From positions 1-23,232 of the IMG/VR virus record IMGVR_UViG_3300046010_000460: 23,232 nt of DNA; one strand, written 5' to 3'. This DNA comes from a virus. The notes beneath the pieces were generated by a model. That model was not told where the DNA came from. It saw only the letters and a program-made list of their open reading frames with translations, and did not search any database. Positions 1 through 15,311 of the stretch are shown piece after piece; within the stretch, counting starts at the first letter, position 1, and each line of letters begins with the position of its first letter. The position numbers and the translations under genes were made by a program.

Positions 1-141
1 ATTACAGTTACTGTTGTTGGTATCAAGGCTACCTCCCCTGAGGAAGTTGAAGATATCATTACGGACAACATCGAAGTCAGCGGCTACGACTTAGAGTTGC
101 ACGACCCAGATGTACGAGTACAACATATCGAGCGAGAATAA
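1..141 (+). CDS. C-terminal end of an unknown phage protein (5' truncated)
   Basis: The frame starting at base 1 is open for 46 codons and ends with TAA at 139-141. The visible part starts ITVTVVGIKATSPEEVEDII and is acidic at its end (DVRVQHIERE). Its start lies left of the window, so full length is unknown. Alternating hydrophobic residues followed by an acidic helix suggest a small alpha/beta domain, but I recognise no family. It is the last gene before a 119-base non-coding gap and is probably the preceding gene of the same early operon. It is accepted as coding because its residue use matches the neighbouring genes and the gap only begins after its stop. Confidence 0.55.
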   Translation: MTVTVVGIKATSPEEVEDIITDNIEVSGYDLELHDPDVRVQHIERE

Positions 142-260
142 CTATCATCAGCACACGCTATCTAGCACATGGGACTTTGTTCATTTCGACTATGTGTTAG
201 ACTTGGGGATGGGTGGTCCCGCCATCTGCGAACACGGGACACTACTAAACAAGGAGACAA
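142..260 (+). promoter_or_regulatory. Structured 5' leader: long hairpin plus possible H-type pseudoknot before the nuclease gene
   Basis: This is the only sizeable non-coding gap in the left block. Bases 161-172 pair with 190-201 (12 bp with two G-U pairs, 17-base loop). A second stem pairs 208-212 with 222-226. The loop segment of that stem, GTCCCG at 216-221, is complementary to CGGGAC at 235-240, which gives H-type pseudoknot geometry (3-base and 8-base connecting loops). The first hairpin loop also carries CTTTGTT (175-181), which could pair with AACAAGG (248-254) and mask the Shine-Dalgarno AAGGAG at 251-256. A cis-acting regulatory RNA is inferred. I see no convincing -35/-10 promoter here. 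All pairings were found by eye, with no folding energy calculated. Confidence 0.5.
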
Positions 261-1043
261 ATGCCAGTAGAAATTGAAAGAGATAGATACGGAAGACCGC
301 TAGTCATTCCTCCTAGTGGTGGTAAAGCAATTGCATATACCCGTGCTACCACTATAGCCAACAGTCTTGATGATGCTTCAGCATTAACCGCATGGAAAAT
401 GCGGATGGCAGCAATAGGTTTAACCAGCAGACCAGACTTACTGCTAGCCATTGGTGTAGCAGCAGACAACAACAAATTAGTTAATGCATACATTGAAGAA
501 GCAATGGAAGTTGCAGGTGCTAGCAAAGCAGCAACAATTGGCACAGCCATCCATGCATTAACAGAAAAACTAGACTTAGGTTTAGAGTTAGGTGCAGTAC
601 CAGAACAATGGATGCCAGACATTCTTGCATACCAAAAAGCAACCAGCATACTTACTAAGATTTATATCGAACAATTCACAGTGCTAGACAAGTTTAAAAT
701 TGCTGGCACACCAGATAGAGTTGTTGAATACAAAGGCGAAAGGTTTATTGCAGACCTAAAGACAGGTCGCATTGACCATCCAAATAACATTGCTATGCAG
801 TTAGCAATCTACGCTAACGGCTCGCCGTACATGATAGATACGGCGACCCGTGGCACATGGGGCGACATCAACAAAGAAAAAGCAATCATCATTCATGCCC
901 CAGCAGGGACAGGAACTTGCAAGTTAGTATGGATTGACATCAAAGAAGGATGGAAAGGTGTACAATTTGCAATGAAAGTAAGAAAGTGGCGAGACCAAAA
1001 GGGTTTGGCTACTCCATTTGAGCAAGGAGAAGATAGTGCCTAG
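261..1043 (+). CDS. Cas4/RecB-like PD-(D/E)XK exonuclease
   Basis: This 260-residue protein has the RecB/Cas4 nuclease motif set: GTAIH at 94-98 (motif I histidine), GTPDR at 149-153 (metal-binding Asp), DLKTG at 165-169 (the D/E-X-K core) and a Q-x-x-x-Y motif (QLAIY) at 180-184. Such enzymes are metal-dependent DNA exonucleases. In phages they usually sit in replication or recombination modules and process DNA ends. No cysteine cluster typical of iron-sulfur Cas4 proteins is visible (a single Cys near 220), so RecB-like is the safer name. The ATG start is supported by AAGGAG at 251-256 with a 4-base spacer. The gene lies directly behind a structured leader, and its end overlaps the start of the next gene by 8 bases. 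Confidence 0.85.
   Translation: MPVEIERDRYGRPLVIPPSGGKAIAYTRATTIANSLDDASALTAWKMRMAAIGLTSRPDLLLAIGVAADNNKLVNAYIEEAMEVAGASKAATIGTAIHALTEKLDLGLELGAVPEQWMPDILAYQKATSILTKIYIEQFTVLDKFKIAGTPDRVVEYKGERFIADLKTGRIDHPNNIAMQLAIYANGSPYMIDTATRGTWGDINKEKAIIIHAPAGTGTCKLVWIDIKEGWKGVQFAMKVRKWRDQKGLATPFEQGEDSA
1024..1029 (+). promoter_or_regulatory. Shine-Dalgarno site that fixes the GTG start at 1036
   Basis: AAGGAG lies six bases before GTG at 1036-1038. A longer reading of the frame would begin with TTG at 1018, but that start would lie upstream of this site. The GTG is therefore the preferred start, and it makes the protein six residues shorter than the longest open frame. Confidence 0.7.
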
Positions 1044-1488
1044 TACAGAAGCACCAATCAGTATCACAGTAAAGACACCAGCAGGTAGTCTTGTCACAGT
1101 CCGTGCAGAAAGCGGAGAAGAACTAGACAATATTGTTGCACTATCAGTGCACGCTATTGCATCAGCAGCAACAGAACTAGAAGCAGCAGTGCGTGGTGCA
1201 ACACCAGCACCAGCAGCACAACCAGTTATGTCAGCAGCATCAGTTGCCGCAGCATTAGGTGGCAACATCATTGAAACACCAGCCCCAGTTGCAACAGCAC
1301 CAACAATTGGTGGGCGTTCATGTCCACATGGAAAGATGACAGCAATCCAAGGTATGGGTAAAGATGGCAGACCATATAAAGGTTGGTTCTGCCCAGCACC
1401 GAAGGGTGCATTTGATAAGTGTAAGAACCAGTATGTTGCTAACACATCACCAGAGTGGAACACATTCGTTCCAGAACAGATTAAGTGA
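1036..1488 (+). CDS. Small protein with C-terminal CHCC putative zinc site
   Basis: This is a 150-residue protein with three parts. Residues 8-55 form a beta strand plus helix (starting SITVKTPAGSLVTVRA). Residues 56-92 are an Ala/Pro-rich linker. Residues 94-135 are a compact segment with C96, H98, C119 and C129 spaced like a zinc ribbon, plus aromatic residues (YKGWFC). I do not recognise a named family. Its place between a RecB-like nuclease and a DnaB-like helicase suggests a replication accessory role, perhaps binding single-stranded DNA or a partner, but this is inference from context. Its start overlaps the nuclease gene, and its TGA stop overlaps the GTG start of the helicase (GTGA), so translation is probably coupled. 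Confidence 0.75.
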   Translation: MPSTEAPISITVKTPAGSLVTVRAESGEELDNIVALSVHAIASAATELEAAVRGATPAPAAQPVMSAASVAAALGGNIIETPAPVATAPTIGGRSCPHGKMTAIQGMGKDGRPYKGWFCPAPKGAFDKCKNQYVANTSPEWNTFVPEQIK

Positions 1489-2297
1489 AAACACTTAGAC
1501 GCTCTATAAACAAAGCAGAGGTAGGCGGAGAACCACTTCCGCCTGCCTTTGCTGCATTTGAGAGAGCAGGAATTATCCTGCGTAGAGCAGAGGTAACTGT
1601 TATTGCAGGCACTCCAGGTGCAGGCAAGTCATCCGTTGCATTGGCTATTGCTGCTAAAACAAAACATCCTACACTTTACTTTTCAGCAGATACCAATGCA
1701 CATACGATGGCTATGCGCTTGATTGCCATGACTGGCAAGATGACACAGGCAGCAGCAGAACAACTACTAAAGCGCGACCCTGCTAGGTCGCACGAAATAC
1801 TACAACTCAACAACCATTTGTTCTGGTCCTTTGAATCTAGCCCTACACTCAAAGATTTAGATGATGAAGTCTCAGCCTTTGAAACAGTATGGGGTAAGTC
1901 GCCAACCCTTATAGTTGTAGACAACCTAATGGATGTAGCAATGGATGGATACGATGAGTTCGGTGCAATGCGTGCCGTTATGAAAGAACTCAAGTATCTA
2001 GCCAGAGATACCAATGCAGCAGTGTTGGTACTACACCATACAAAAGAAGGATTTGATGGCTATCCTTGCCAGCCACGCAGCGCAGTGCAGGGCATGGTCA
2101 ATCAAATTCCAGCAATGGTTTTAACTATTGGTCAGATGAAACAGGGTGACGACACATACTTATGTGTGGCACCAGTCAAGAACAGATACGGTAGAGCAGA
2201 CCAAACAGGTAGCAATTATGTTAGCCTATCTTTTAGTCCAGACTCTATGTATCTAGAGGATGTACCAGTCAGGTATCAACAGGAAGAGGTAATGTAA
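1485..2297 (+). CDS. DnaB-like replicative helicase ATPase domain
   Basis: This 270-residue RecA-fold ATPase has Walker A GTPGAGKSS at 42-50, Walker B LIVVDN at 142-147, a histidine sensor segment (VLHHTKE, 182-188) and KNRYGR at 232-237. The last corresponds to the KxRxG region of DnaB/RepA-type hexameric helicases. It lacks the N-terminal primase-interaction domain of cellular DnaB, which accounts for its short length. It most likely unwinds DNA at the phage fork, working with the split primase downstream. The GTG start overlaps the preceding TGA. No strong Shine-Dalgarno precedes it, so initiation probably depends on coupling. A RadA/RepA-like ATPase of another role is the main alternative. 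Confidence 0.85.
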   Translation: MKTLRRSINKAEVGGEPLPPAFAAFERAGIILRRAEVTVIAGTPGAGKSSVALAIAAKTKHPTLYFSADTNAHTMAMRLIAMTGKMTQAAAEQLLKRDPARSHEILQLNNHLFWSFESSPTLKDLDDEVSAFETVWGKSPTLIVVDNLMDVAMDGYDEFGAMRAVMKELKYLARDTNAAVLVLHHTKEGFDGYPCQPRSAVQGMVNQIPAMVLTIGQMKQGDDTYLCVAPVKNRYGRADQTGSNYVSLSFSPDSMYLEDVPVRYQQEEVM

Positions 2298-2440
2298 TGC
2301 CAAAGTATAGAGTGACATACTCACAATATAAAGTAAAAGTTATTCGCGCTTCTTCATTAGCAATAGCAGAAGAACGTGCAAAGAAAGCAGAAACAGGTAG
2401 ATGGGAACTAACAGAGGTTAGGGACGAACCACAAGAATGA
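2297..2440 (+). CDS. 47-residue phage protein of unknown function
   Basis: The ATG at 2297 overlaps the helicase stop (TAATG), and an AGAGG site lies seven bases before it. The frame is 47 codons and ends with TGA at 2438-2440, which overlaps the ATG of the next gene. The protein starts MPKYRVTYSQYKVKVIRA, has a central helix rich in Ala, Glu and Lys, and ends acidic. The beta-strand start followed by a helix resembles small single-domain phage proteins, but no family is recognised. Overlap at both ends and a good ribosome site make it a real gene despite its size. Confidence 0.7.
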   Translation: MPKYRVTYSQYKVKVIRASSLAIAEERAKKAETGRWELTEVRDEPQE

Positions 2441-2781
2441 GTACACCAGCCAAGCGTAAAGGCAGCAAAGCCGAAGCAGATGCAGTTAAATGGCTAAAGG
2501 CTAATGGTTTTCCTTATGCAGACCGCAGAATAGCAGGAGCACAGTTAGACAAAGGCGATATCAGCGGTGTCAATGGAGTAACTATTGAGGTTAAAAACCA
2601 TGTCCGCATGGACTTGAGCGCTTGGATTAAAGAACTAGAAGTAGAAATGAAAAACGATAATGCATGGACAGGAACTGTTCTGCATAAGCGTAAGGGTAAA
2701 TCAGATGTTGGTGAGTGGTATTGCAGTATGCCAGCCAGCGTATGGCTAGCCCTGATTAGGAAGGTGTTAGGTGAAACATAG
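2437..2781 (+). CDS. Hjc-like PD-(D/E)XK endonuclease (putative Holliday junction resolvase)
   Basis: This 114-residue protein has the compact resolvase-type nuclease pattern: basic start with KGSKAEADAV (E13 in helix 1), GDI at 40-42 with D41, and EVKN at 51-54 giving the E-x-K pair. Length and motif spacing fit archaeal Hjc or related phage resolvases, which cut branched DNA. The role would be resolving recombination or replication intermediates before packaging. A different structure-specific or VRR-type nuclease cannot be excluded. Its ATG overlaps the previous stop (ATGA), and its last 11 bases overlap the primase zinc-finger gene. It is the second of three PD-(D/E)XK proteins in this operon. 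Confidence 0.75.
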   Translation: MSTPAKRKGSKAEADAVKWLKANGFPYADRRIAGAQLDKGDISGVNGVTIEVKNHVRMDLSAWIKELEVEMKNDNAWTGTVLHKRKGKSDVGEWYCSMPASVWLALIRKVLGET

Positions 2782-3145
2782 TATCGCAGACTATCTACGC
2801 TATATAGGCGCAGCCGTTCCTGCTGAGGGACACGGCTGGCGCAAAATCAAATGCCCATTCCACAGCGACAGTCATGCATCAGCAGGTATTAACTTTGAAG
2901 AAGAAAGATTTAAATGCCACGGCTGTGGTGTTAGTGGAGATGTATACGATTTAATTATTCACAGGGAAGGAGGCACATACCGTGAGGCTATCAAATTCGC
3001 ACAGACAATTTCTCTTGCAGGCAACGCACCAGTACGCCAGTCAGATTCATCTAGCAACAGACTACCTAGCAACACGCAATCTATCGGTAGAAGAGGCGCA
3101 ACGCTTTCATCTTGGAGTGGTAAAGGACGCTCTTCCAGGTCATGA
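2771..3145 (+). CDS. CHC2 zinc-finger part of a split DNA primase
   Basis: This 124-residue protein carries the DnaG-type zinc-binding domain: C28, H31, C49 and C52 (C-x2-H-x17-C-x2-C), then GVSGDVYDLI and a helix REAIKFAQ matching the end of the CHC2 domain. Such domains recognise the template for primer synthesis. After about residue 82 the frame gives a Ser/Arg-rich tail with no catalytic domain, while the TOPRIM part lies in the next frame and overlaps by 164 bases. The GTG start has AGGAAGG six bases upstream. It may act as a separate subunit, or be joined to the TOPRIM part by a +1 ribosomal shift. A sequencing error is the third possibility. Confidence 0.8.
   Translation: MKHSIADYLRYIGAAVPAEGHGWRKIKCPFHSDSHASAGINFEEERFKCHGCGVSGDVYDLIIHREGGTYREAIKFAQTISLAGNAPVRQSDSSSNRLPSNTQSIGRRGATLSSWSGKGRSSRS
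2965..2973 (+). promoter_or_regulatory. Strong internal Shine-Dalgarno before the TOPRIM primase frame
   Basis: GGAAGGAGG lies inside the zinc-finger gene, eight bases before GTG at 2982. It supports independent initiation of the TOPRIM frame. The same bases encode the Glu-Gly-Gly segment of the zinc-finger domain, so chance cannot be fully excluded. Confidence 0.55.
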
Positions 3146-3611
3146 GCAGTACCTCAATAGACTAGCAATACCGTACATCACACCGTCAGGTGTAGTTGAT
3201 ATTAGATTCAGAGCATTAGGTAATGTAGACCCAAAGTATATGGGTATGCCAGGTGCTAAGACCAGCATGTTTAATGCACAAGCAGTGCTAACAGCATCAG
3301 ACTATATCTGTGTGACTGAAGGCGAGATAGATTGCATAACAGTATCTGTTAAAACACCACATCCAGCCGTAGGTATTCCAGGTGCAAACAACTGGAAGCC
3401 ATTCTATTCCAAGATATTAGATGACTTTGATACAGTAATTGTTTTAGCAGATGGTGATTCAGCAGGTATGGATTTTGGCAAGAAGGTTAGCCGAGAGTTA
3501 GGTAATGTTAATATAGTTCAGATGCCAGAGGGGCATGATGTTAATAGCATAGTAATGCTAGAAGGAGCGGAGTTTATTAATGAACGAATCCGAAAATGCC
3601 TTTCTGAATAA
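2982..3611 (+). CDS. TOPRIM catalytic part of a split DNA primase
   Basis: This 209-residue protein has the DnaG catalytic-core order: DYLATRNLSVEEAQRFHLG at 27-45 (the usual core start), then TEGEIDC at 112-118 with the catalytic Glu, DGD at 157-159 (metal-binding pair) and DVN at 186-188. It would make RNA primers at the phage fork with the zinc-finger partner. The first about 22 residues are not primase-like and come from the overlap with the previous gene. Its frame is +1 relative to that gene and is closed by a stop at 2952-2954, so any shift must occur between there and 3145. The GTG start is chosen because of the strong ribosome site. Its end overlaps the next gene by 32 bases. Confidence 0.8.
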   Translation: MRLSNSHRQFLLQATHQYASQIHLATDYLATRNLSVEEAQRFHLGVVKDALPGHEQYLNRLAIPYITPSGVVDIRFRALGNVDPKYMGMPGAKTSMFNAQAVLTASDYICVTEGEIDCITVSVKTPHPAVGIPGANNWKPFYSKILDDFDTVIVLADGDSAGMDFGKKVSRELGNVNIVQMPEGHDVNSIVMLEGAEFINERIRKCLSE

Positions 3612-3891
3612 TGGCGATGAGGTATGGGATTTTATTAAAGATAACCCCAGATACATAGGCATACCAATCTCTAAGCGCCAAGGACTAGACATCCTTAATG
3701 CGTTACGAGATGTATGGGTAGCCAATAAGAATGACCATGAACAGGCTAACAAAATGCTAACTATGTTGGCAGCCGTGCTTGTATCAGCAGAAGCAGGACT
3801 GGGTGAAGAGATAGTAGAAGAAGTGTTAGTACAAGAAGCAATGATGGATTTTGAAGAGCAGGCTAAGGAGATACTAGATGAAAAACCTTAA
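3580..3891 (+). CDS. Small helical protein of unknown function
   Basis: This 103-residue acidic protein is mostly helical by residue pattern. A start rich in Asn and Glu (MNESENAFLNNGDEVW) leads to a short Ile/Pro segment around 22-32, and then to a long amphipathic stretch rich in Ala, Val, Leu, Glu and Met to the end. No catalytic or metal-binding motif is visible and no family is recognised. GGAG at 3569-3572 precedes the ATG by seven bases. It overlaps the primase end by 32 bases and the next gene by 14 bases, so it belongs to the replication operon. The overlap and strong codon continuity support it as a real gene. Confidence 0.65.
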   Translation: MNESENAFLNNGDEVWDFIKDNPRYIGIPISKRQGLDILNALRDVWVANKNDHEQANKMLTMLAAVLVSAEAGLGEEIVEEVLVQEAMMDFEEQAKEILDEKP

Positions 3892-4168
3892 TGACTTTGA
3901 AGATATTCTTAATGAACTACGTATTATTATGGTACGTAAGCATCAAGACTATGGTCCATTTAACATAGCCAATGCTCCAGGTGGTGCAATGAACGGGCTG
4001 CTTGTGCGTATGCACGACAAGATGGCACGATTAGAAAACCTTTACTACAAAAGTAGCGACACGCCCAACTATGAAAGTATTGAAGATACCTTTCTTGACC
4101 TAGCGAACTATGCAATAATCGGACTATTGGTACAAAGGCGACAATGGGAAGGCGTAGCAGAGGAATAA
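3878..4168 (+). CDS. DUF1599/Nmad1-type protein (nucleotide modification associated, MazG-like helical fold)
   Basis: This 96-residue protein matches the pattern of the DUF1599 (nucleotide modification associated domain 1) family: K-H-Q-DYG at 21-26, R44 with MHDKMARLENL at 45-55, and an acidic helix ESIEDTFLDLANYA at 66-79. The Glu/Asp-rich helices resemble the metal site of MazG-type nucleotide pyrophosphohydrolases. The family is found in many phages and has been linked by genome context to modified DNA bases. No other base-modification enzyme is visible here, so nucleotide-pool trimming is an equally good guess. AAGGAG at 3865-3870 sits seven bases before the ATG. Confidence 0.75.
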   Translation: MKNLNDFEDILNELRIIMVRKHQDYGPFNIANAPGGAMNGLLVRMHDKMARLENLYYKSSDTPNYESIEDTFLDLANYAIIGLLVQRRQWEGVAEE

Positions 4169-4169
4169 C

Positions 4170-4817
4170 GTGGACTACTTAGAAGAGTATGAGCAGATGG
4201 TTGTGGCAATTGCTGCCGAATACCAGCGCAAATACCCTATGACTGACCAGCAAGATATCCAGCAGGTACTATGGATATGGTTTGTTAGTCATCCAGTTAA
4301 GTACAAAGAGTGGTCAGCACTGCCACAAAAAGACAAGGACAAACTCATAGCCAAGTCTCTTCGTAATGCAGCACTTAAATACTGTGAACGCGAAAAGGCA
4401 CGGACGGTTGGTTATGAGTTACTTGATTTGTACTACTACGATGCCTCAGTTATCGAGGCATTCCTACCATCTATCATCTCAGAATCCTATGAGATACCAA
4501 CTAAGATTAAAGACCTCAACTTTAAGTTCACCAAAGGTGAAAGCACAGACACTAACAACTGGTTAGTGCTGCGCTCAGACATAGCATCTGCATATTACAA
4601 ACTGTCAGAGGCTAAACAGTTTATTTTAAAGACTAGATTTAGTACAGAGTCTTGCGAGTGGAGCAAGTTAGGGGAAGAGTTAAAGACCACCCCTGACGGT
4701 GCACGTATGAAAGTACAGCGTGCTATCAGTTCTTTAATTAGAAATCTTGGTGGCTATAGGTCACATCTAGATGAAGACAGTTCTGTAGAGGTAGAAGATG
4801 ACGAATCAGGAGAGTGA
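4170..4817 (+). CDS. Sigma-factor-like DNA-binding protein
   Basis: This 215-residue protein has two recognisable parts. Residues 5-80 resemble a sigma region 2 helix bundle (EYEQMVVAIAAEYQRKYP, DQQDIQQVLWIWF, SLRNAALKYCERE). Residues 143-193 resemble region 4, with a helix-turn-helix (LSEAKQFILKTRF, then SKLGEELKTTPDGARMKVQ and a final basic helix). The end is acidic. By family knowledge such proteins bind RNA polymerase or promoter DNA and would redirect transcription to phage genes, here perhaps the late block. The match is by pattern only and core-binding residues are not obvious. The GTG start has GAGG at 4160-4163. It heads a run of four putative regulators. Confidence 0.6.
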   Translation: MDYLEEYEQMVVAIAAEYQRKYPMTDQQDIQQVLWIWFVSHPVKYKEWSALPQKDKDKLIAKSLRNAALKYCEREKARTVGYELLDLYYYDASVIEAFLPSIISESYEIPTKIKDLNFKFTKGESTDTNNWLVLRSDIASAYYKLSEAKQFILKTRFSTESCEWSKLGEELKTTPDGARMKVQRAISSLIRNLGGYRSHLDEDSSVEVEDDESGE

Positions 4818-5043
4818 TAATGTCAAAGAAATCCGAGAGTTACTACATCCAAAGGATTACTCACACGCTATGGATTTGCGAGGAGAATCTATTGGGGATG
4901 TTTGCGTATGTGGAGGGGATGTATTTCATGCGCTTGTTGCATTTGACCAAGGTGAACTATGCTTTTATTTCCTTGATGGAGAGTGCGTTAACTGTGGGTC
5001 AATGGTCACACTCCCTTACCCAAAGAATGAGGACTCTATCTAA
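4798..5043 (+). CDS. Small CxC/CxxC zinc-ribbon protein
   Basis: This 81-residue protein has a helical start followed by C36-V-C38-G-G and, after a beta-rich segment (ALVAFDQGELCFYFLDG), C63-V-N-C66-G. This is the usual two-knuckle layout of a zinc ribbon. Its role is unknown; small ribbons of this type often bind nucleic acid or a polymerase. The ATG at 4798 overlaps the end of the sigma-like gene by 20 bases and has GAGG six bases upstream. The stop overlaps the next ATG (TAATG). A competing frame from 4820 has a good ribosome site but no coherent domain, so this frame is preferred. Confidence 0.65.
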   Translation: MTNQESDNVKEIRELLHPKDYSHAMDLRGESIGDVCVCGGDVFHALVAFDQGELCFYFLDGECVNCGSMVTLPYPKNEDSI

Positions 5044-5204
5044 TGCCACTGTATGATTTTAAATGCAACTATTGCACAGAAGTAATAGAGACTAACGAGA
5101 ATATTCCACCAGCCTGCACCACTTGTGGTGAAACTATGCAACGGGTATGGTCAGCACCAGCAATCAAGTTCAACGGCACAGGCTTTTATTCAACAGGAGG
5201 ATAA
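5043..5204 (+). CDS. FmdB-family zinc-ribbon protein
   Basis: This 53-residue protein closely follows the FmdB/Zn_ribbon_8 pattern. It starts MPLYDFKC with C8 and C11, then CTTCG with C25 and C28, then QRVWSAPAIKFNGTGFYST, where the family usually reads R-V-F-S-A-P-x-I-x-F-x-G-x-G-F-Y. These ribbons occur widely in bacteria and phages. A regulatory role was proposed for the founding member, but the molecular function is unclear. The ATG overlaps the previous stop and the gene ends one base before the WhiB start. It is too short to be noticed by length alone, yet the family match is strong. Confidence 0.85.
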   Translation: MPLYDFKCNYCTEVIETNENIPPACTTCGETMQRVWSAPAIKFNGTGFYSTGG

Positions 5205-5471
5205 ATGAATTACCCAGAATGGAAAGGCACACCCAATTGCAGAAGTGTTGACTCAGAGGAATTTTTTGTACCCGATGGTTCATCAACTTATAGAGAAGTA
5301 AAGATGCTAAAAAGAATCTGCAATAACTGTGAGGTCAAAAAGCAATGCTTAGACTATTCACTACATAATGGTGTCTTTGGATTCTGGGGTGGTACTACAG
5401 AATACGAACGTAAACTTCTACGCAGAAAACTAAACATCATTCCCAAACCTCTATACTTAGGATACCCATGA
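5205..5471 (+). CDS. WhiB-family iron-sulfur transcription factor
   Basis: This 88-residue protein has the four invariant cysteines of the family, C12, C39, C42 and C48 (C-x26-C-x2-C-x5-C). These bind a 4Fe-4S cluster. It also has the GFWGG turn at 59-63 and a basic C-terminal segment (ERKLLRRKL) for DNA contact. WhiB proteins bind the main sigma factor of Actinobacteria and alter promoter choice. Phage versions are known; the one in mycobacteriophage TM4 interferes with host WhiB2. This gene is the best host marker in the window. AGGAGG at 5195-5200 precedes the ATG closely. The TGA stop overlaps the next ATG. Confidence 0.93.
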   Translation: MNYPEWKGTPNCRSVDSEEFFVPDGSSTYREVKMLKRICNNCEVKKQCLDYSLHNGVFGFWGGTTEYERKLLRRKLNIIPKPLYLGYP

Positions 5472-5848
5472 GCAAACTATCAGACTTTGACTTAGACCTA
5501 GCAAGAGGACAACAAGGAGAACAACTAGTAGAACAATTGTTAACGGGTGGTTCTACAGTAGAAGTAAAGACAGATTTAAAATGGAAAGATACGGGCAACC
5601 TATATATAGAAACAGTGTGCTGGTCACACAACAACGAGAATTGGTATCTATCAGGATTGTCCAGTACGAAAGCAAGTTACTGGGCTTTCGTTCTGGAGGG
5701 GGCAACTCTGTTAGTACCAACGGAAGTACTGAAGCAGGTAGTTACGGCAAGGGGAAGAGCCATTACCTGCAACATACCTCCGAACCCAAGCAAGGGATAC
5801 CTTGTGAAGGTAGAGGACATACTTAATGTTCTCCGCAACTCTCTGTAA
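5468..5848 (+). CDS. PD-(D/E)XK nuclease-like protein
   Basis: This 126-residue protein has a nuclease-type pattern: RGQQGEQLVEQLL (E18 in helix 1), VEVKTD at 31-36 giving E32-x-K34, then TGNLYIE at 42-48 and LSSTKASYWAFVL at 64-76. The acidic residue expected just before E32-x-K34 is not in its usual place, though D10 or another residue could serve. The function may be cutting branched or host DNA, which is inference. It is the last gene of the left operon. Its ATG overlaps the WhiB stop (ATGA), and a terminator follows ten bases after its stop. Confidence 0.6.
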   Translation: MSKLSDFDLDLARGQQGEQLVEQLLTGGSTVEVKTDLKWKDTGNLYIETVCWSHNNENWYLSGLSSTKASYWAFVLEGATLLVPTEVLKQVVTARGRAITCNIPPNPSKGYLVKVEDILNVLRNSL

Positions 5849-5857
5849 ATAACAAAA

Positions 5858-5898
5858 AAACCCCCAGCGCTGGTAATAAAAACCAGTACTGGGGGTTT
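5858..5898. terminator. Bidirectional rho-independent terminator between convergent operons
   Basis: AAACCCCCAG (5858-5867) pairs with CTGGGGGTTT (5889-5898), and CTGGT (5870-5874) pairs with ACCAG (5882-5886) inside it, with a small internal mismatch and the loop AATAAAA. On the + strand TTTCTTGTTT follows the stem; on the - strand the run TTTTTTTGTT follows. It therefore can end both the early (+) and the late (-) transcripts. Confidence 0.9.
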
Positions 5899-5909
5899 CT
5901 TGTTTCTAT

Positions 5910-5924
5910 GGGCCTGCTAGGCCC
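5910..5924 (-). terminator. Short GC-rich hairpin after the last late gene
   Basis: GGGCCT (5910-5915) and AGGCCC (5919-5924) form a perfect six-pair stem with a three-base loop, nine bases after the stop of the last - strand gene. No U-run follows directly, so it may pause polymerase or protect the 3' end ahead of the larger terminator. Confidence 0.45.
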
Positions 5925-5933
5925 CTTAAATAG

Positions 5934-6149
5934 TTATTCGTTTGAGCCTGGACCGTAGTCCTTTGAGTTCTTGTTAGCCCACTTAGCAACAGGTGCAGCC
6001 AATGCACCAATTACTACAGCATATTGCGGAGCCATATCAGTAAGCAGGGCGATACCCATTGTTACAGCAGCCGCTAGTACGGCTAAAGCATAATCCTTAA
6101 TTGCCTTTACTTCTTTTGGACCAATAAACTTATCTACTAAGTGCTTCAC
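5934..6149 (-). CDS. Putative holin (two membrane segments)
   Basis: This 71-residue protein has a charged start (MKHLVDKFIGPKEVKAIKDY), a hydrophobic stretch at about 21-38 (YALAVLAAAVTMGIALL) and a second at 43-58 (YAVVIGALAAPVAKWA), then a polar tail. Size, two segments and position directly after the endolysin gene fit a holin that permeabilises the inner membrane at the end of infection. No sequence family is recognised, so the call rests on topology and context. The GTG start overlaps the endolysin stop by four bases, and GGAG lies five bases upstream. It is the last gene of the late operon. Confidence 0.65.
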   Translation of the reverse strand: MKHLVDKFIGPKEVKAIKDYALAVLAAAVTMGIALLTDMAPQYAVVIGALAAPVAKWANKNSKDYGPGSNE

Positions 6150-13919: not shown

Positions 13920-15311
13920 TTAGTATGCACCCATTATATTCATAAGTTCTATGTCTTTGCCTTGAATTGTTAAACCGCCTGTGTTTTGTCCTGCCGTTAC
14001 GTTAGTACCAATAAATACGCTACCTGAAAAGTTGATACGCATTTTTTCTGTTTCGTCTGTTGCAAAAATAATTGCCCTAGATGCTGAGTTATGTCCTAAC
14101 CAAAGAGCAGTAGAGTCAAGAGCAATACCTCCCGCATAACCACTGCCTTTTGCGGTAATTTGACCTGACCAGAATGCGTCAGGAGTAATATCTGTTGATT
14201 GATTATTAACAGCAAGTTTAGTATTTATTGTTGCACCATAAGTTGCGCCAGCGCTAGTTCCTCCAATAGCAACATTACCATCAGCATCAATAACAAATGG
14301 TGTTGTATCAGAAGCCACATCGTTAACTACAAATGAGTTGCCTGTGCCATTGTTTTGAATGGCAAGCGGAACCGTTGTGCCTGATGCAACTGTAATGGTT
14401 GAGCCACCATTAGTAGAAACATAATCAGTTGGCAATGGGCCTGTTGCACCTGTTGCTCCTACTGGGCCTATCGCTCCTGTTGCTCCAGTTGGTCCAACGT
14501 CTCCAGTTACACCCGCTGGACCTGTAGCACCCGCTGCACCTACTGGACCAGTAGCACCCGTAGCACCATCTAATCCATTAGTACCTGCTGGACCCGTTGC
14601 TCCAGTTGGGCCTGGCACTGTAGAATCAGCACCGCTTGCACCTGTCGCACCTGCAGGTCCCGTAGGACCAGTTGGTCCTTCTGGTCCTGTTGGACCTGTG
14701 GCTCCTGTAGAGCCAATTGCTGTAGAGTCTGCACCAGCAGGCCCCGTTGCGCCAGTGGGTCCTATAGGGCCTGTAGGGCCCGTAGAACCTGTATCACCCT
14801 GAATACCTTGTATTCCCTGGGGTCCAGTAGCACCTACTGGTCCCGTGGCTCCAACAACTCCTGTGGCTCCTGTTGGACCCACATCGCCTGTAACTCCCGT
14901 AGGTCCGACAATTCCCGTTGCTCCGACTGGTCCAGTTGCTCCAGTCGCGCCAACACTACCAGTAGCCCCAATAGGGCCAGTGGGACCAACATCACCAGTA
15001 ACTCCAGTAACACCTTGAACTCCTTGACTTCCTTGTGGTCCTGTTGGACCTGTCGGTCCGACATCACCTGTTACTCCTTGTGGTCCAGTAGACCCTGTTG
15101 GACCTTGCGGTCCTGTACTTCCTGTGGGTCCTGATGGACCCGTAGCACCAGTGTTTCCAGGTGTACCTTGTGGACCTTGGTCAGCAGATAAAGAAACTGC
15201 AACAGTTGGACTTACTGACTCAATAGTAATAGTTGTTTCATTTGGTGAAGCATTTTCAACAGAAAGATTAATTGCCGCACTAGGCGTTTCTACAATAATA
15301 AACTCTGTCAT
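13920..15311 (-). CDS. Collagen-like tail fibre
   Basis: This 463-residue protein has three parts. Residues 1-45 are an anchor-like beta segment ([19 protein letters not shown]). Residues 46-292 are Gly-x-y repeats, mostly of the types GPTG, GATG and [10 protein letters not shown]. Residues 293-463 form a C-terminal beta domain ([33 protein letters not shown]). Such repeats form triple helices in phage and bacterial fibres, and the end domain is the likely trimerisation or receptor-binding head. The repeat is broken twice by GADST plus two residues, giving hinges. Thr-rich repeats offer sites for glycosylation. The ATG overlaps the previous stop by four bases. Confidence 0.85.
14436..15176 (-). 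repeat. Coding Gly-x-y repeat tract of the collagen-like fibre
   Basis: About 82 triplets encode Gly-x-y units. Nine-base periodicity and recurring blocks such as [10 protein letters not shown] (four copies or near copies) make it prone to expansion, contraction and assembly error. Two interruptions carrying GADST divide the tract. Confidence 0.85.

Follow-up and report, generated by a model that had tools for sequence, protein, structure and literature searches.

What occupies the 119 bases (142-260) between two co-directional genes near the start of a 23,232-nucleotide viral sequence (the window, by which we mean the whole stretch analysed), where the preceding frame stops at 139-141 and the following one starts at 261? 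A sequence-only reading had proposed a pseudoknotted RNA here, and its main pairings are found in the letters: all 12 pairs of a hairpin, 161-172/190-201, are present as placed, two of them being G-U, and so are a stem of GATGG (208-212) with CCATC (222-226) and a knot of GTCCCG (216-221) with CGGGAC (235-240). Overlooked in that reading were a sixth pair of the stem, 207-227, and a third helix, 156-158/228-230. The hairpin is referred to below as P2, the stem as S1, the knot as S2 and the third helix as Pa (Table 1). The product of the downstream gene is ~40% identical to a mycobacteriophage 'Cas4 family exonuclease', and the window contains a single match to the element.

Table 1. Features of the leader and its flanking genes, in window coordinates.
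Feature	Position	Strand	Basis
Upstream co-directional gene, 3' end; related to a 144-aa protein of locus L279	1-141	+	open frame, homologue
Pa, 5' strand, CGC (UUCGC or similar in relatives); closes the three-way junction	156-158	+	complementary to 228-230
P2 hairpin, variable second arm: stem 161-172/190-201, loop 173-189	161-201	+	12 pairs
S1 (= P3), 5' strand; 6 bp with 222-227	207-212	+	100% paired, covariation
L1, GUG: GU invariant, third base mostly G/U	213-215	+	alignments A1, A3
S2, 5' strand, GUCCCG; pseudoknot with 235-240	216-221	+	double changes, covariation
S1, 3' strand	222-227	+	covariation
Pa, 3' strand, GCG	228-230	+	covariation
Junction AACA; final ACA invariant	231-234	+	alignments A1, A3
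S2, 3' strand, CGGGAC	235-240	+	double changes, covariation
G-free linker up to the ribosome-binding site	241-250	+	composition across copies
Shine-Dalgarno, AAGGAG	251-256	+	sequence; kept in homologues
Downstream gene, PDDEXK (Cas4/RecB-like) exonuclease	261-1043	+	Pfam PF12705; phrog_466, E 2.7e-65

Folding energy gave no support when compared with shuffled sequence, since the nested fold of the leader is unexceptional (z = -1.29, with 17 of 200 shuffles folding equally well), but a nested fold cannot score a pseudoknot and its energy is therefore uninformative on this leader. The claim that the complementarity in the gap had been selected was settled in its favour by comparison, through pairing in homologues and covariation. 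A query with the nuclease protein gave 362 viral relatives, and most of the best 80 of these, which were kept, carry the same leader with a nearly unchanged core and a drifting hairpin. Among 43 distinct leaders of close homologues S1 and S2 are 100% paired and the P2 hairpin is 99.8% paired, with three of its pairs doubly changed; S2 has a double change, UA to CG, in L023. A further helix had been suggested between the hairpin loop (175-181) and the ribosome site (248-254), and the complementarity exists in the window sequence but is not conserved: 80% of cells pair in homologues, 35 of 43 lack the pair 175-254 and 16 of 42 lack 179-250, and we rejected this helix because two positions are so often broken and no double change occurs. 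A 55-aa open reading frame (110-277) was considered as a coding alternative and dropped, because the lengths of hairpin and linker vary freely between homologues.

When sequences were scanned for the core, or for a pattern in which S1 could vary, the RNA also turned up in other gene contexts, behind unrelated hairpins of differing lengths. The two strands of S1 change together (GAUGG/CCAUC, AGUGG/CCACU, GGAGC/GCUCC, AGAGC/GCUCU and others), and a conserved short 5' segment (UUCGCA and variants) pairs with the bases just past S1 (UGCGAA), also co-changing, as in UUUGCA/UGCAAA in L244, UGCGC/GCGCA in L214 and UCAC/GUGA in L238. This is the helix Pa, reduced to CGC/GCG in the window, and its co-change with the bases that follow S1 implies a three-way junction of Pa, P2 and P3, the last being S1. 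Over 42 divergent copies 92.6% of cells are paired, compared with 86.0% for shuffled and at most 42.5% for slid partners, 44 cells are doubly changed against a shuffled mean of 9.3 (none of 500 shuffles was as high), and four of the six Pa pairs are doubly changed. In this three-way junction the loop of P3 forms a knot with the strand immediately 3' of Pa.

The patterns that yielded these 42 copies fixed most of S2, so independent data were needed for that helix. A model built without the S2 pairs (R1) was run on loci chosen by their diverged nuclease protein and gave 33 matches in 79 of these protein-selected loci, where S2 reads GUCCCG/CGGGAC, GCUCCG/CGGAGC or GUACCG/CGGUAC and the pairs 217-239 and 218-238 have double changes in eight sequences each; E-values of R1, and of a model R2, are rough. 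The model to which alignment A2 was fitted contains Pa and S1 but not S2, making S2 the cleaner test there. In the merged alignment the top nine of 861 column pairs by corrected G-statistic are all proposed pairs, S1 taking ranks 1, 2, 3, 6 and 8, S2 4 and 5, and Pa 7 and 9 (and also 11), which is a ranking and not a formal E-value, as the effective number of sequences is about 10. One locus, L217, has two tandem copies in which S1 and S2 differ between the copies yet match internally. Compensatory change in homologous leaders, the check named in the sequence-only reading, is thus seen in all three helices, and by these comparisons the leader is a real structured RNA, larger than that reading described. 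A DNA-level element, such as an origin, recombination or protein site, might mimic RNA helices by its symmetry and would agree with a core whose bases hardly vary and with the usual single copy per genome, but knotted complementarity with compensatory changes and a sense orientation relative to the flanking genes are what an RNA predicts, and we regard a DNA site as extremely improbable.

The impression that the fold belongs to no known class held in database searches. Rfam 15 gave no match at gathering threshold for the window or for L011, L046 and L002, and permissive scans (positions 100-320, and eight loci with diverse copies) gave unrelated weak matches only, with no described xrRNA covariance model among them. 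GUCCC...GGGAC resembles HDV ribozymes, a reading that was discarded because P3 of the ribozyme is missing. Judged by these scans, the element matches no described RNA family. Flaviviral xrRNAs are likewise three-way junctions, in which the P3 loop forms a pseudoknot with the strand 3' of P1 (PMC7603331), and Pa, S1 and S2 covary in this same order here; however, xrRNAs sit in the 3' UTR of an RNA virus whereas the element would lie in a phage mRNA between cistrons, and no second pseudoknot was identified in the element. The common topology is, on this analogy, a resemblance and not membership.

Collection by pattern gave 137 distinct copies, of which a few GC-rich ones are probably chance (L208, L209, L212, L216 and L228 look so and were kept out of the alignments). 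About 130 distinct copies are credible, in metagenomic phage contigs related to phages of Ca. Nanopelagicales, and the comparison demonstrates that evolution has preserved the base pairs in more than 100 freshwater phages. One copy is present in 49 of 50 records and two in the other (G041), seven contigs of ~40 kb being included. Two of the records that bear the element have ~54% GC and are arranged in other gene orders; the family thus extends beyond a single phage group. Searches of INPHARED by blastn with the leader or core returned nothing useful, GTDB genomes contain neither an exact 28-mer of the element nor relatives of the nuclease protein, and the element found no match in Planktophila phages E7/F5 at E up to 5. 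The nearest cultured relatives are two Planktophila phages, with ~67% identity over 12% of window positions 1-6000 and a helicase 56% identical to that of the window; Planktophila phages infect Ca. Nanopelagicales (PMC10202952), and we infer that the host of the window is Nanopelagicales-like. Elsewhere in the window, a primase is encoded in two overlapping frames (2771-3611), a zinc ribbon at 2771-3145 and a Toprim frame from a GTG at 2982 that has its own Shine-Dalgarno, lies in the +1 frame and overlaps the zinc ribbon frame by ~160 nt, an arrangement that is the same in 98 of 98 distinct sequences tested. A long collagen-like Gly-X-Y repeat protein is encoded on the minus strand (13920-15311) among structural genes.

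A same-strand gene ends just before the element in 109 of 112 copies, with 34-114 nt separating the upstream ORF from the core in almost every case (two outliers measure 152 and 327), and a start codon follows 17-30 nt past S2 in 107 of 130 copies, a count that includes a few chance-looking GC-rich matches. The linker sequences of the copies consist of 56% A, 30% C, 13% T and 1% G. Short spacing could partly reflect the compactness of phage genomes. In 23 copies other sequence, typically 110-170 nt, precedes the next start, and at L192/L277 (G029) the element is adjoined on its 3' side by a strong hairpin that resembles an intrinsic terminator, T run included, and then by an antisense HNH gene, an arrangement that most copies lack; closeness to a ribosome site is therefore not obligatory. 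The next gene varies between the nuclease, MARGNG, MNTIQ and small ORFs; MARGNG and MNTIQ matched no Pfam or PHROG family, and DUF932 is found near them. The RNA had been described as preceding the nuclease gene, which is correct for the window but does not extend to a nuclease-specific association, as other genes follow in relatives. The notion that the element always stands upstream of the replication module was also discarded, since in G026 the two lie on opposite strands.

From its position the element is likely to be regulatory, and a riboswitch, an operator and a translational device are all possible. We think a general cis role, exerted on the next cistron, probable; the element usually occurs once per record and at different junctions, so its effect would not be tied to one gene product. 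The mechanism is less secure than the cis role, and we tentatively favour, at somewhat under an even chance, a gene-independent block that insulates the ribosome site and/or holds back decay. An intercistronic module of ~60-100 nt would be transcribed within the polycistronic early mRNA and fold into the three-way junction with its knotted P3 loop, and after it would come a G-poor stretch without structure in which the ribosome site of the next gene lies. The fold would shield the ribosome site from invasion by upstream mRNA and would hinder 5'-to-3' decay or processing, and the downstream cistron would thereby gain its own initiation and lifetime, uncoupled from the preceding gene. The xrRNA-like topology speaks for this reading, as does the clustering of the invariant unpaired bases (GU, ACA) at the knot and not in a junction pocket.

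The strongest rival reading is a translational operator of the T4 gene 32 type, on which a phage or host RNA-binding protein would nucleate at the pseudoknot, spread over the leader and cover the ribosome site. In the T4/RB69 gene 32 mRNA, too, the leader that contains the Shine-Dalgarno is unstructured and has a pseudoknot immediately 5' of it (PMC535899), and the spacing and 1% G linker of the element give the same layout, its unstructured state being judged from composition. Invariant bases lie at the knot, conservation beyond pairing hints that something recognises them, and the element precedes early, partly replication, genes. Unlike the gene 32 operator, however, the element is a three-way junction with a shorter, A/C-rich and G-poor linker (that of T4 is >40 nt) and no known binder; no SSB-like gene was identified, and the downstream genes differ, which accords poorly with simple autoregulation by the next gene. 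Several of these downstream genes match no family. An operator is on balance a rather doubtful candidate.

PreQ1-II and SAM-II are compact pseudoknot riboswitches near a ribosome site. The element has a compact, conserved and covarying aptamer-like fold beside a ribosome site as well, tandem copies occur in L217/L236, and pseudoknot aptamers have a precedent in the glutamine-II riboswitch (PMC6698751), also a compact pseudoknot near the ribosome site. Binding of a small molecule at the junction or knot that controls translation of the next gene is nevertheless unlikely, because the varied downstream genes have no consistent metabolic logic and no expression platform is visible: the Shine-Dalgarno lies outside the fold, the pairing of loop and ribosome site is not conserved, and no sense-strand terminator-like site was found in window positions 1-1500, the terminator at L192/L277 coming after the element. 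J2/3 is not conserved either, and no riboswitch was hit in Rfam. HK022 put is a two-stem cis-acting RNA of a phage early transcript, present about once per transcript and not tied to a ribosome site. An RNA of this kind, which would target RNA polymerase during early transcription and cause processive antitermination, would agree with one position-flexible copy per record in early operons, but the architecture seems different and the element usually stands mid-operon at a near-fixed distance from the start codon, which put would not need, making this reading very unlikely. We give even less credence to a trans-acting RNA, whether a processed small RNA or a decoy or antitoxin mimic like PhiTE pseudo-ToxI. 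Phages mimic ToxI pseudoknots, and ToxI and pseudo-ToxI are, as is the element, small phage-borne pseudoknot RNAs (PMC3475682); RNA modules also turn over and stand in tandem in these leaders. ToxI is a tandem-repeat antitoxin, however, whereas the element is a single larger module embedded in an operon with conserved start-codon spacing, and no array of short pseudoknots was found in the 50 records.

The gene-independent block that we tentatively favour would explain the varied downstream genes, the swap for another knot and the absence of the element where genes are adjacent. In 68 protein-selected loci the DUF932/MNTIQ junction holds this RNA in 33, a module D in 19 and a near-D sequence in 5, the D descriptor having a background of ~3% per 75-nt window, while 9 loci have 8-9 nt between the genes and 2 are of another kind; where the genes stand apart, therefore, nearly every leader ends in either of two unrelated pseudoknots. 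Module D, with the sequence NNNC-C-UGAGYA-U-GNNN-WUAAAC-UGCUCA, is an H-type pseudoknot of 28 nt that immediately precedes ribosome sites (L302:4957, L338:4887, L011:2786, L046:1098, L342:3088 and others), with compensatory changes in its first stem (for example ACAC/GUGU, AGAC/GUCU, CCUC/GAGG) and its second (UGAGYA/UGCUCA, and UGACCA/UGGUCA in L116).

Further modules were observed in such leaders. Module C, an internal loop of AGCGUAA / GAGAUGCA with flanks ACC/GGU, occurs in both circular orders and is often the immediate 5' neighbour of the element or of D (L226 upstream of 12264 on the minus strand; L046, L311 and L338 leaders). Module B, UAUGCAUA-CUGC ... GCAG-CGAUAGCG within a closing stem, is placed between the element and D, or before D, in the L011, L211, L230, L318 and L341 leaders. 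Module E, a conserved three-helix RNA around CUCGCAAUGAUACSCGAG-UAAGA-GUAC..GUAC, is found in the same leaders (L281:6256, L311:4641, L345:4950, L347:1749, L357:926). It is conceivable, although we would not expect it, that freshwater actinophages have an intercistronic slot for interchangeable, unrelated pseudoknot RNAs, the three-way junction or D and often further tandem modules. These would make a cistron independent in translation and stability, xrRNAs would have a counterpart among them in bacterial viruses, and evolution would proceed by module exchange.

The swap with another pseudoknot at the same junction makes a role in polycistronic mRNA testable, and control of initiation, a decay block and a binding site could be distinguished in this way. 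Resistance to a 5'-to-3' exonuclease, if true, would be a phage parallel to viral xrRNAs. A strongly covarying and widespread family that is absent from Rfam would extend the known RNA regulation of phages, and its carriers are relatives of phages that infect a freshwater bacterial group among the most abundant.
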